Assembly: GCF_030068475.1 (NCBI RefSeq)
Contig: NZ_JAQOSP010000006.1
Span: 1 to 64,000 of the forward strand
Reading direction: 5' to 3'
Source of the DNA: Roseofilum acuticapitatum BLCC-M154
GTDB taxonomy: Bacteria; Cyanobacteriota; Cyanobacteriia; Cyanobacteriales; Desertifilaceae
Length of the DNA stretch: 64,000 bases
Below, piece by piece: positions 41,320-44,678 of the stretch; position 1 is the first letter of the stretch; every line of letters starts with the position of its first letter. A program made the translations under genes and the position numbers. Below the pieces are notes generated by a model. It was given only the letters and a program-made list of their open reading frames with translations, made no database searches and was not told the DNA's origin.

Positions 41320-41778
41320 ATGACGATTTATTTTTATTCCACTCGTGAAAAGCCTTATGGCTGTTTCTCCAATTTTTCGGCCCATGGGTTTACTCTAGAT
41401 GAGTTATGGTGGCCCACTAGCGAGCATTATTTCCAAGCACAGAAGTTTATAACCACTGATCTAGCGTGGTTTGAGCAGATTCAAAGGGCGAAAACGCCGA
41501 AAGATGCGGCAAAAATGGGACGCGATCGCACCCATCCCCTACGAGAAGATTGGGAACAGGTGAAAGAGGAGATCATGTTTCAGGGAGTGTTGCAAAAGTT
41601 CACAACCCATGACGAGCTACAGCAAATTTTATTACAAACGGGAGAAGAGGAAATTGTTGAAAACTCTCCCATTGACTATTATTGGGGATGCGGGAAAGAC
41701 GGAAGCGGCAAAAATCGGTTAGGGGTCATTTTGATGCAAGTGCGCGAGCAACTCCATGAAAACCACTCAATACTTTGA
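41320..41778 (+). CDS. NADAR-family (YbiA-like) protein
   Basis: A 152-residue NADAR-domain protein: FYSTREKPYGCFSNFSAHGF, WPTSEHYFQAQKF and YYWGCGKDGSGKNRLGVILM are family hallmarks, including the YWGxGxDGxGxNxLG signature. E. coli YbiA hydrolyses N-glycosidic bonds of reactive riboflavin intermediates, while other NADAR proteins reverse ADP-ribosylation of guanine and act as antitoxins. Which applies here is unknown. ATG 41320 is chosen from the usual family start; ATG 41299 would add seven residues. The 3' end overlaps the next small gene by 23 bp, and a diverged copy of its 3' end lies at 42197-42253. Confidence 0.92.
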   Translation: MTIYFYSTREKPYGCFSNFSAHGFTLDELWWPTSEHYFQAQKFITTDLAWFEQIQRAKTPKDAAKMGRDRTHPLREDWEQVKEEIMFQGVLQKFTTHDELQQILLQTGEEEIVENSPIDYYWGCGKDGSGKNRLGVILMQVREQLHENHSIL

Positions 41779-41992
41779 CTCAGTGAGGAATCGTCCCGAC
41801 CGTTCATTCATTAAGGATGAGTGGATTCTCTATGTTATGGAAAACCCTGAACGGACTCAGGTTCAATCAGATGGTAGAGTTAGGCGATGGGCAAAAATTA
41901 CAGAAGCAGAAGAAAGATATCTGCGTGTCGTTTTATTACCTGATGAAGAAACAGTTCATAATGCATTTTTTGATCGGAGGTTCAAGCCATGA
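41756..41992 (+). CDS. Small conserved-looking protein, possible toxin-like partner
   Basis: A 78-residue protein (RNRPDRSFIKDEWILYVMENPERTQ ... RRWAKITEAEERYLRVVLLPDE). The composition and order (basic start, central strand pairs, VVLLPDE near the end) are like small DUF4258/RelE-superfamily proteins found beside DUF2283 genes in cyanobacteria. I do not claim a confirmed family. The ATG lies inside the end of the NADAR gene, and its stop overlaps the start of the DUF2283 gene by four bases (ATGA), so the two small genes are translationally coupled. Confidence 0.75.
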   Translation: MKTTQYFDSVRNRPDRSFIKDEWILYVMENPERTQVQSDGRVRRWAKITEAEERYLRVVLLPDEETVHNAFFDRRFKP

Positions 41993-42186
41993 AAATTCAA
42001 TACTTCCAAGACACCGATACCCTATATTTAGAATTCAAAAACTCTAATATTGTTGATACTCAAGAGCTTGACGAGTCAACATTGTTGGAATTTGACGATC
42101 GCGGGAATATTTGCGCGATTACCTTAGAACATGCTAGTGAGAGAACAGATATTACTGAGCTGATCGCGGAAGGAATTGCAGCTTAA
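41989..42186 (+). CDS. DUF2283-family protein, possible antitoxin
   Basis: A 65-residue protein with the DUF2283 pattern MKIQYFQDTDTLYLEFKNSN ... DDRGNICAITLEHASERTD. DUF2283 proteins are often encoded right after a small RelE/DUF4258-like gene and are suspected antitoxins. Here the gene overlaps the preceding gene by four bases. The function is not demonstrated for this family, to my knowledge. Confidence 0.85.
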   Translation: MKIQYFQDTDTLYLEFKNSNIVDTQELDESTLLEFDDRGNICAITLEHASERTDITELIAEGIAA

Positions 42187-42196
42187 TTGATCTTGA

Positions 42197-42334: not shown

Positions 42335-43192
42335 ATGAAAACCATTGCCATTTATCACAACAAAGGCGGAGTTGGCAAAACCACTACGGCTGTTAACCTT
42401 GCTGCTGCCTTTAGCAACAAAAATAAGCGCGTCCTGCTCGTCGATATTGATGCTCAGGCCAACTCAACGTTTGCCACGGGGTTAATTAAGTTTCAATTTG
42501 AAGAAGATGATAACCTGAAAGACCGGAATATTTTACAAATTTTGAGTTCGGCAGAGTTGGATTTTATTCCGGAAATTGCCCGTAAATCTAAGGGCTTTAA
42601 TACTCCAGAAATTGATGTGATTCCTTCCCATATTACCCTGATTGATGAACAAGATAGGCTCAATCGTATTAGCGCTGTTCCATTTCGTCTGAATACTAAG
42701 CTACAACAAGTCGAAGATCGCTATGATATTGTGATTATTGACGCGCCACCGTCTAGAGACCTTTATGCTCAAATTGCTCTGATTTCAGCCGACTATGCGA
42801 TCATCCCTTCTGATATGAAGCCTTTTTCTAATCAGGGACTGACGAATGTGAAAAAATTTATTCGTGAAATTAATGAAACTCGATCGACGATTGGTAAAGA
42901 ACCTTTACAAGTATTAGGGGTTTTGGCTTCTAAGATTTTAACGAATAGTAAATACTTAGAATTTGTGTTTCCGAAGCAGAAAGATGCGGTTTTGCAACGG
43001 TATCAACTGCCGATGTTGAAGACAGTAATCTATGAGAGGGTGGCGCTCTCTCATTGTGTGAATCAAACGGTGAGTCGAGGTGATATGGAAATTCCCGATC
43101 CTAAATCGGTGTTTGAGTTTGAACGGGATGGGGATTCTGTGAAAGAATTTAGAAATCTGTCGTCTGAAGTGATGCAAAAAATCGGTCTGTAA
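42335..43192 (+). CDS. ParA-family partition ATPase
   Basis: A 285-residue ParA/Soj-type protein. The deviant Walker A KGGVGKTTTAVNLA is at residues 10-23, followed by LLVDIDAQANST (Walker A', about 35-46) and VIIDAPPS (about 131-138). It lacks an N-terminal HTH, so it is of the short ParA kind. It should bind DNA non-specifically and drive positioning of a plasmid, chromosome origin or protein cargo. The next gene, 2 bp after the stop, encodes a ParB-like protein. Such a pair on an otherwise chromosomal segment suggests an acquired or cargo-positioning system. Confidence 0.92.
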   Translation: MKTIAIYHNKGGVGKTTTAVNLAAAFSNKNKRVLLVDIDAQANSTFATGLIKFQFEEDDNLKDRNILQILSSAELDFIPEIARKSKGFNTPEIDVIPSHITLIDEQDRLNRISAVPFRLNTKLQQVEDRYDIVIIDAPPSRDLYAQIALISADYAIIPSDMKPFSNQGLTNVKKFIREINETRSTIGKEPLQVLGVLASKILTNSKYLEFVFPKQKDAVLQRYQLPMLKTVIYERVALSHCVNQTVSRGDMEIPDPKSVFEFERDGDSVKEFRNLSSEVMQKIGL

Positions 43193-43194
43193 TC

Positions 43195-43902
43195 ATGAGC
43201 AAGTATTATTTAGTGGATGTTAAAAGTATTCAGTCCAAGGTTTCTCGCTCAGAGTTTGCGGTAGAGGAGTTGGAACATTTGGCTCAAAGTATTCTGAAGT
43301 CAGATGGGTTGTTAATGCCCCTGATTTTAAAGCAAACGGGGCCGGAATCTTATGAGGTGTTGGCGGGCGATCGCGAATATTATGCAGCCGTCAGAGCGAA
43401 GGAAATCAATCTGCGTGCTGGGGAAATGGTGAATGCGTTTGTGGTTCCGCCGAAGTTGCAAGAGGCAGCTCTAGAGCAGGTTTCGGCGCTCTATCCGACC
43501 CCGATGCAGGGGGGAAATAGGGCGACTGATGCTGGATCGACGGGAGCGGTAGAGCAACGTTTAAATAACCTCGAATCTCGCTTTGATCGGGCACTGCAAG
43601 ACATGAAACAGACTCACCAGCAAGCAATCAAGGCACTACAAGAGCAGATTAATGGCTTACAGGAACAAATTCCGGCGAAAATCGAACCACTGGAGCTACT
43701 GAACCAGGGGAGTTCTGTGGAATTGCTGGAAAAACTGGCGATCGCCAATATACGCGGTAAAACGGCTGATAAAATTATTAGTGGCATCGAGAAAGCCCGC
43801 AAAAAAGCGCCATTTAAGTCCTTCAGTGATGCGATCGACCGGATTCCAGGACTCGGAGACAAGCGCATGATTACCCTCTTAGATGCTTGGGGAAATCGGT
43901 AA
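43195..43902 (+). CDS. ParB N-terminal-domain protein with C-terminal helix-hairpin-helix-like region
   Basis: A 235-residue protein. Residues 1-90 form a ParB/Srx-like nuclease-fold domain (VDVKSIQSKVSRSEFAVEELEHLAQSILKSDGLLMPLILK ... EVLAGDREYYAAVRA). The usual ParB box GERRYRAA is represented by AGDREYYAAV. A short coiled coil (about 125-160) follows. The C-terminus (about 165-235) resembles a helix-hairpin-helix domain (IANIRGKTADKIISGIEKARKKAPFKSFSDAIDRIPGLGDKRMITLL) in place of ParB's HTH. It probably works with the ParA just upstream; no parS-like site was recognised. Confidence 0.85.
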   Translation: MSKYYLVDVKSIQSKVSRSEFAVEELEHLAQSILKSDGLLMPLILKQTGPESYEVLAGDREYYAAVRAKEINLRAGEMVNAFVVPPKLQEAALEQVSALYPTPMQGGNRATDAGSTGAVEQRLNNLESRFDRALQDMKQTHQQAIKALQEQINGLQEQIPAKIEPLELLNQGSSVELLEKLAIANIRGKTADKIISGIEKARKKAPFKSFSDAIDRIPGLGDKRMITLLDAWGNR

Positions 43903-43946
43903 TATAGTCATTTCAAATAGTAATGAGACATTATGTAAATCAATGT

Positions 43947-43971
43947 GTAAGGTGGGCACTGCCCACCCTAC
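43947..43971. repeat. GGTGGGC-ACT-GCCCACC hairpin
   Basis: A perfect 7-bp stem with a 3-nt loop at 43951-43967 (also readable as 8-1-8), extended by partly complementary flanks. It lies 45 bp after the ParB-like gene. A degenerate relative is at 14830-14857. Confidence 0.75.
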
Positions 43972-43980
43972 TGGACTGGC

Positions 43981-44036
43981 TTAAGGGGGGGCAGTAGAGA
44001 AAGTCCCCCTTTTCAAGGGGGATTTAGGGAGATCGA
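43981..44036. repeat. Partial GATCCCCC-type element
   Basis: It runs from AAGGGGGGGCAGTAG to GGAGATC, with C-rich and G-rich tracts that can pair (AGTCCCCCTTTTCAAGGGGGA). It belongs to the same class as 44583-44654 and 51400-51508 and lies in the 186 bp between the ParB-like gene and cyanase. Confidence 0.7.
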
Positions 44037-44088
44037 TATGTATCTCATCAACTTTAATCGGGTCACCCCACTACCAGATTGGAACCAG

Positions 44089-44532: not shown

Positions 44533-44582
44533 TGTTAAATTCCTCGTTGTTAAGTGTACAAATTACAGATGTGAGAGATTTT

Positions 44583-44654
44583 GATCCCCCTAAATCCCCC
44601 TTAAAAAGGGGGACTTTGAAAACCCCCTGCTTAAAAAGGGGGGTTGGGGGGATC
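44583..44654. repeat. GATCCCCC...GGGGGGATC element inside the cyn operon
   Basis: Terminal GATCCCCC and GGGGGGATC bound two internal C-tract/G-tract pairs (AATCCCCCTTAAAAAGGGGG and ACCCCCTGCTTAAAAAGGGG). It can fold as one long or two short hairpins and sits between the ATPase and cyanase genes. Confidence 0.85.
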
Positions 44655-44678
44655 TTAAAGCGCAGGATCTCAACTTAA

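Follow-up and report, generated by a model that had tools for sequence, protein, structure and literature searches.

Across the cyanobacteria there is a widespread two-gene family in which a ParA-type ATPase is paired with a partner protein, here called B, that begins with the N-terminal fold of ParB and ends in a tail of the general nucleic-acid-binding kind. The breadth of this family was missed by the preliminary description of the locus studied here, which lies in Roseofilum acuticapitatum BLCC-M154, within positions 1 to 64,000 of contig NZ_JAQOSP010000006.1 (called C6), the whole stretch that was analysed and that is termed the window in what follows. In the reading we favour, held at about even confidence, the pair would be a ParA-driven device that grips DNA without sequence preference and serves DNA handling, not parS partition. 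Its purpose may lie in defence, repair or nucleoid maintenance, and we lean to DNA handling. As first described, a ParA and a ParB-like partner occupy 42335-43902; both reading frames are present on the + strand, 2 bp apart, and the conservation of the pair across the class speaks against a chance neighbourhood. The features are as follows.

42335..43192, + strand: ParA-family ATPase in its short form (285 aa), lacking the nuclease-like domain that most relatives have at the N-terminus (Pfam; orthologues directly upstream of B; tree)
43195..43902, + strand: partner protein B, 235 aa, ParB-fold / coiled-coil / helix-hairpin-helix (HhH) (Pfam, family profile, alignment)
43237..43401, + strand: ParB_N domain of B, residues 15-69, without canonical CTP-contact residues (Pfam E 5.5e-9; family profile)
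43363..43392, + strand: AGDREYYAAV of B (residues 57-66), where the GERRxRA box would stand (motif comparison, 42 relatives)
43537..43704, + strand: predicted coiled coil of B, about residues 115-170 (Pfam overlaps; low-confidence model)
43690..43893, + strand: C-terminal double HhH of B, about residues 166-233 (DUF655, HHH_6, 2i5h profile match)

The window ParA matches the Pfam families AAA_31 (E 1.3e-51) and CbiA (E 2.6e-18), and its Walker A motif reads KGGVGKTT. The first part of B is a ParB_N domain, which scores 36.4 bits in Pfam against a cut-off of 26.3 and is found at E <= 0.1 in all 27 aligned members of the family. Searched against solved structures, a profile built from these 27 rows finds the ParB domains of Noc (E 1.8e-8) and Spo0J (E 1.6e-6). 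It also matches residues 1335-1405 of a 1717-residue “Tail protein” (PDB 9k3a chain B, E 2.4e-7), in a segment that includes a motif like AREADPRKFENVNVIVI. That this ParB fold comes without a helix-turn-helix (HTH) had been proposed from the start and is borne out: neither an HTH nor a ParB C-terminal dimerisation family is detected in B by Pfam at E <= 1, and none figures among the 25 commonest Pfam families of the 27 members. Beyond the fold, several coiled-coil families overlap residues 118-166, a region drawn as one long helix by a low-confidence structure prediction (pLDDT 50, pTM 0.27), which was made from a two-row alignment (window and L039) and discarded as too poor. The basic HhH-like domain said to stand in place of the HTH includes IRGKTADKIISGIEKARKKAPF (residues 186-207). 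It is weak on the single window protein (HHH_6 E 0.028, DUF655 E 0.017) but becomes firm on the family, where at E <= 0.1 HHH_6 is found in 16 of 27 relatives (best E 4.7e-5) and DUF655 in 19 of 27 (best E 6.1e-5), and where the C-terminal region of the profile matches the solved DUF655 protein 2i5h (E 7.4e-7) as well as 27ae, a “DNA-binding protein” (E 7.3e-5).

The boxes that characterise canonical ParB were looked for in 42 family members (the window, L039 and 40 regions picked from class-wide matches to B). The altered box noticed earlier is a family trait, AGDREYYAAV standing where the G.RR.R pattern of the GERRxRA box is expected, a pattern kept by 0 of 42; the EN.QR pattern of the ENxQR box is likewise kept by none, so that the check for CTPase motifs proposed at the outset comes out negative for both. 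The ParA-binding motif (L/F/I)G(K/R)G(L/F/I), taken from excerpts of PMC12704722, is also found in 0 of 42, which counts against the contact with ParA that the favoured reading supposes. In C. crescentus ParB, changes at R60, S74, G79, R103, R104, N136 and R139 abolish or weaken CTP binding (excerpts of PMC8367383). The place of Arg104 is taken in the B family by Glu (36 by script and L049 by eye), Gln (2) or Val, Thr and Gly (1 each; n=42). The invariant columns of the 27-row alignment include G58, Y62, A65, A68, E77 and Q95, and for this reason the ParB domain of B is constrained and not decaying. Since ParB folds devoid of canonical boxes can still bind ATP or GTP, the sequence not predicting which (excerpts of PMC12704722), B may be nucleotide-regulated despite its missing CTP boxes.

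How does such a pair relate to ParABS? As in that system (e.g., Spo0J, C. crescentus ParB), an ATPase with KGGVGKTT is followed by a downstream partner that begins with a ParB_N fold; unlike in that system, the partner has no HTH, GERRxRA, ENxQR or LG[KR]GL ParA-binding motif, and its tail is either HhH or Rho_N/SAP. Because the HTH, the CTP boxes and the ParA-binding motif were all looked for and not found, the pair should not be filed as ParABS, although its mode of action may be that of a ParA gradient system. The absence of a nearby parS was anticipated correctly, with no parS-like site in the 64-kb window at <=2 mismatches; this is weak evidence, because the pattern is also missing genome-wide at <=1 mismatch despite a canonical-looking ParB, so that it may be the wrong pattern for this host. 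A partition locus of the ordinary kind, chromosomal or belonging to an integrated replicon, might use a centromere other than known parS, as the tight parA-parB-like gene pair and the CTP-independent ParABS-like plasmid system reported in excerpts of PMC12260392 would allow. We consider this improbable: the HTH is missing and its place is taken by tails of two unrelated types, both of the general nucleic-acid-binding sort, the host already has a canonical-looking ParAB on contig C39, the pair is absent from two of six genomes of the genus, and B has no match among the 72,556 plasmids of PLSDB.

Other reuses of the ParB fold are known. The fusions of Kaljevic et al. (2025; PMC12704722, excerpts) also join a divergent ParB fold to a lineage-specific domain; there, only the ParB-DUF3850 fusion is consistently found beside parA and HhH is unnamed in the main text, unlike B, which carries HhH and adjoins parA. 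Similarly to PadC and Noc, B would reuse the ParB fold as an adaptor outside segregation; it differs in that PadC and Noc bind CTP (excerpts of PMC12704722), the CTP-contact residues not being kept in B.

The neighbourhood survey in other cyanobacteria suggested by the preliminary description revealed a pair conserved across the class amid flanking genes that vary. Matches to B at E <= 1e-3 are found in 122 of 388 sampled class genomes, 91 of which (about a quarter of the 388), with a best E no worse than 1.3e-7, hold clear relatives. The remaining 31 appear to be mainly N domains of ordinary ParB, most being open frames of about 300-370 aa whose match is limited to the N domain; some may be real B. 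A ParA lies beside B in 28 of 30 loci, none having been found in L021 and L036; of 42 larger contexts, 41 have it, and the exception (L082) is a B without ParA. The ParA-B pair is the only constant unit of these 42 contexts, whose other genes are mostly housekeeping or of no known role and point to no single function. Wherever assemblies have long contigs, the pair sits on multi-megabase ones, i.e., main chromosomes. B has no match among 50,697 phage records of INPHARED either, and its origin from a plasmid or phage was rejected on the strength of both searches; no plasmid matches the fused L024 ParA at 1e-20, and phage ParAs match the window ParA only below 60% identity. No description of the pair was found in searches of open-access PMC.

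Several loci depart from the simple arrangement. Two ParA-B pairs lie in tandem in L027 (G014), and in L078:9772-10863 and L079:10078-11163 B is followed by another ParB_N-like protein, which is longer and, judged by eye, SAP-like at its end. An extra ParA gene, often divergent, about 294-323 aa long and bearing NMKGGVGKTT, is found near the pair in 7 of 42 loci (L053, L056, L057 with two copies, L061, L063, L076 and L080); these were considered as McdA, and neither PDB nor NCBIfam named them so. A viral contig (IMGVR_UViG_3300042471_001765; L084:3983-4288) codes for a free-standing protein of 101 aa whose match to B is confined to the N domain.

The second point missed at first concerns ParA itself: in this family, its association with a nuclease-like domain appears to be ancestral. 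Of 41 parsed loci, 30 have a ParA frame that stays open upstream for a further 158-243 codons from the first start, and in 29 of these 30 fusions (29 of 42 loci) the extension carries an intact E...D...ExK of the PD-(D/E)xK type. HSDR_N is over its cut-off in the extension of L023, below it in that of L024, and absent from the window ParA in a Pfam search. The thirtieth extension (L030/L059) is the C-terminal half of an AAA_12 helicase. Most related ParAs hence resemble at their N-terminus the R subunit of type I restriction enzymes and keep its E-D-ExK, with the difference that HSDR_N is here fused to ParA and not to a translocase. Stand-alone genomic copies were rejected as a source of the domain, since 8 genomes hold no HSDR_N outside the ParA gene except for one weak match; the strain's own genome has no match to the HSDR_N query of the HhH-type family.

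Exactly where the short ParAs begin, a start codon (29 ATG, 1 GTG) is present in each of the 30 extended genes. The linker before this internal start is the least conserved part, with a mean identity of 32% as against 69% for HSDR_N, 58% for ParA and 42% for the N domain of B, as measured on 21 loci; another 6 were left uncut by the script, and 3 had been excluded beforehand. A Shine-Dalgarno-like energy of <= -4 kcal/mol is reached at 13 of the 30 internal starts, compared with 9% of in-frame control codons, while 17 fall short of this threshold; the observed mean energy was attained in 0 of 20,000 random draws, a figure that includes close relatives and so overstates independence. The upstream start of the extended gene is only TTG and/or GTG in 18 of 29. 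Because every one of the 30 keeps a start codon at the junction, in many cases preceded by a Shine-Dalgarno-like sequence, the extended gene probably makes two products, a nuclease-ParA and a bare ParA, and we infer that the latter would be in excess.

Is a methionine at the junction simply a structural need of such fusions? A sister family argues that it is not. On contig C21 of the same genome, a 465-aa HSDR_N_2-ParA (25.3 bits against a cut-off of 25.0) is followed by a 235-aa partner with a weak ParB_N (E 2e-4), a Rho_N (33.4 against 24.9) and a SAP below cut-off. With this partner as query, 115 of 388 class genomes match at E <= 1e-3, the weak end including tail-only matches. ParA could be parsed in 24 of 25 fetched sister loci, and all 24 have an open N-terminal extension, with a recognisable D...ExK in 22. 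None of the 24 has a start codon at the ParA junction, where Ala stands each time, so Met is not required there by the fusion itself. Tails are exchanged within the HhH family as well: ParB_N and Rho_N are both over cut-off in L080, and L076 is just under on both. As judged from these domain matches, then, partners with the ParB fold swap HhH for Rho_N/SAP tails. Both families lie side by side in L059:8582-14652 (G327), where a split HSDR_N-ParA and a ParB_N/Rho_N protein are accompanied by an in-frame fusion of ParA with the end of a DNA2/NAM7-like helicase, which B follows.

In a ParA tree of 67 rows, both the sister clade (97/94) and the HhH clade (96/96) have good support. Since short forms are nested among fused ones, at least three state changes being needed, the window copy has most likely lost the nuclease-like part of its ParA gene.

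An intact PD-(D/E)xK in nearly every fusion invites a defence reading, in which the adaptor captures invading phage or plasmid DNA, ParA serves as an ATP timer or positioner, and cutting falls to the fused nuclease, a task that the window copy would have lost or delegated. Presence in only four of six genus genomes is suitably patchy. In three loci of a single GTDB family (L045, L047 and L048), the pair is surrounded by genes that match defence families: DrmMI/type IIG (1.9e-85), DpdE/DrmD (2.6e-94), GmrSD HEC-05 (4.8e-225), Gabija-type UvrD (8e-30) and Druantia DruE (7e-99), the models having been run on L047 and L048 proteins, mostly L047, and the others deduced from shared clusters. A C5 methyltransferase follows the pair in L039 (E 1.7e-99), and the viral 101-aa protein could be a decoy or inhibitor. 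Against this, such a setting is found in few of the 42 loci, the window copy has no nuclease domain, and PADLOC-DB offers no convincing family match for A (the ParA) or B (best for B E 0.0019). All in all, a dedicated defence system seems a serious possibility that is nevertheless rather unlikely.

The positioning of protein cargo is another known use of ParA/MinD ATPases, and McdAB, which serves carboxysomes, likewise associates a ParA-type ATPase with a small coiled-coil partner in cyanobacteria. McdB is a coiled coil with an invariant C-terminal Trp and is not known to have a ParB_N. Set beside McdB by description only, B has a coiled coil and, in many members, a C-terminal Trp, but it has ParB_N and a DNA-binding-type tail too. 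The extra ParA genes of 7 loci would fit cargo positioning; the genes for the carboxysome shell (BMC), for their part, are on contigs C1 and C154, away from the locus on C6, and no solved chain named McdA is among the matches of the window ParA at E <= 1e-10. This makes a McdAB-like role very improbable.

As for the history of the window copy, its B is 56-62% identical to copies in other orders and at most about 42% identical, over comparable lengths, to same-order copies outside the genus, for which reason it probably came by transfer between cyanobacterial orders. The acquired island initially suspected stands as regards acquisition, which is also indicated by a congener (G389) that lacks A and B in this region and has a Uma2-like and an NTF2-like gene (identified by eye) in the interval from NADAR to cyanase; on the criterion of base composition an island was rejected, since 44.1% is not deviant beside the window's 45.7%. 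The two-gene locus is thus probably a horizontally acquired chromosomal cassette. A NADAR gene adjoins the pair in all four genus genomes that carry it, and G388 has NADAR, ParA, B and cyanase in the same order as the window. The small-gene module is a separate insertion, absent here in three of the four genus genomes; that it is unrelated to the pair was missed at first. About 438 bp long (41756-42193, with flanks reaching about 42253), this insertion carries DUF4258-like and DUF2283 genes and sits at the 3′ terminus of NADAR, which is repeated after it in a copy of about 60-67 bp. G388, G390 and G392 lack the insert at the homologous place, and related copies are found elsewhere in G390 and G391. 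Downstream of B (about 43901-44050) and beside the cyanase gene (44570-44656) there are short, MITE-like repeat sequences with dozens of copies, in both orientations, in congener genomes.

Could the window copy be a decaying remnant without current function in this strain? Its loss of the nuclease-like part and the broken copies found elsewhere (ParA with a frameshift in L044, B interrupted by stop codons in G216 and G129) would agree with it. Yet both window frames are intact, and so is the pair in three congeners (83-91% identity for B, 88-96% for A), which leaves decay scarcely credible.

The device for DNA handling that we favour would operate as follows. The ATPase would bind the nucleoid in its ATP state, and B would dimerise through its coiled coil and hold DNA via a non-sequence-specific HhH tail that replaces the parS-reading HTH. 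By recruiting and resetting ParA, B would then allow the DNA it holds to be moved, spread or kept on the nucleoid. Dimerisation, DNA binding, ParA activation, movement and cargo are what we infer here; HhH and Rho_N/SAP domains can bind RNA or proteins too, which counts against a grip on DNA. In relatives, the choice of start codon would let the same gene also yield a longer ParA with a PD-(D/E)xK domain. Because most relatives' genes would make this form, the ancestral device probably coupled the capture of DNA to its cutting or processing, be it foreign, broken or surplus DNA, and the window copy would retain capture and positioning only. A more ambitious proposal, which we regard as speculative and put forward as an unlikely one, is a new class of ParA-driven DNA surveillance. 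Its two-start gene would give little nuclease-ParA and an excess of bare ParA, its CTP-box-less adaptor would carry interchangeable tails (HhH or Rho_N/SAP), and ParA gradients would sweep the nucleoid and deliver foreign or damaged DNA to the nuclease.

If the favoured reading is true, ParA motors can act on DNA without a centromere or a CTP-gated ParB, and the ParB fold would serve ParA as an all-purpose adaptor to which different DNA grips can be attached. From the conserved internal start, two proteins per ParA gene are predicted, one of them with a nuclease-like domain. Relatives being present in about a quarter of the sampled class genomes, the question reaches well beyond one strain.
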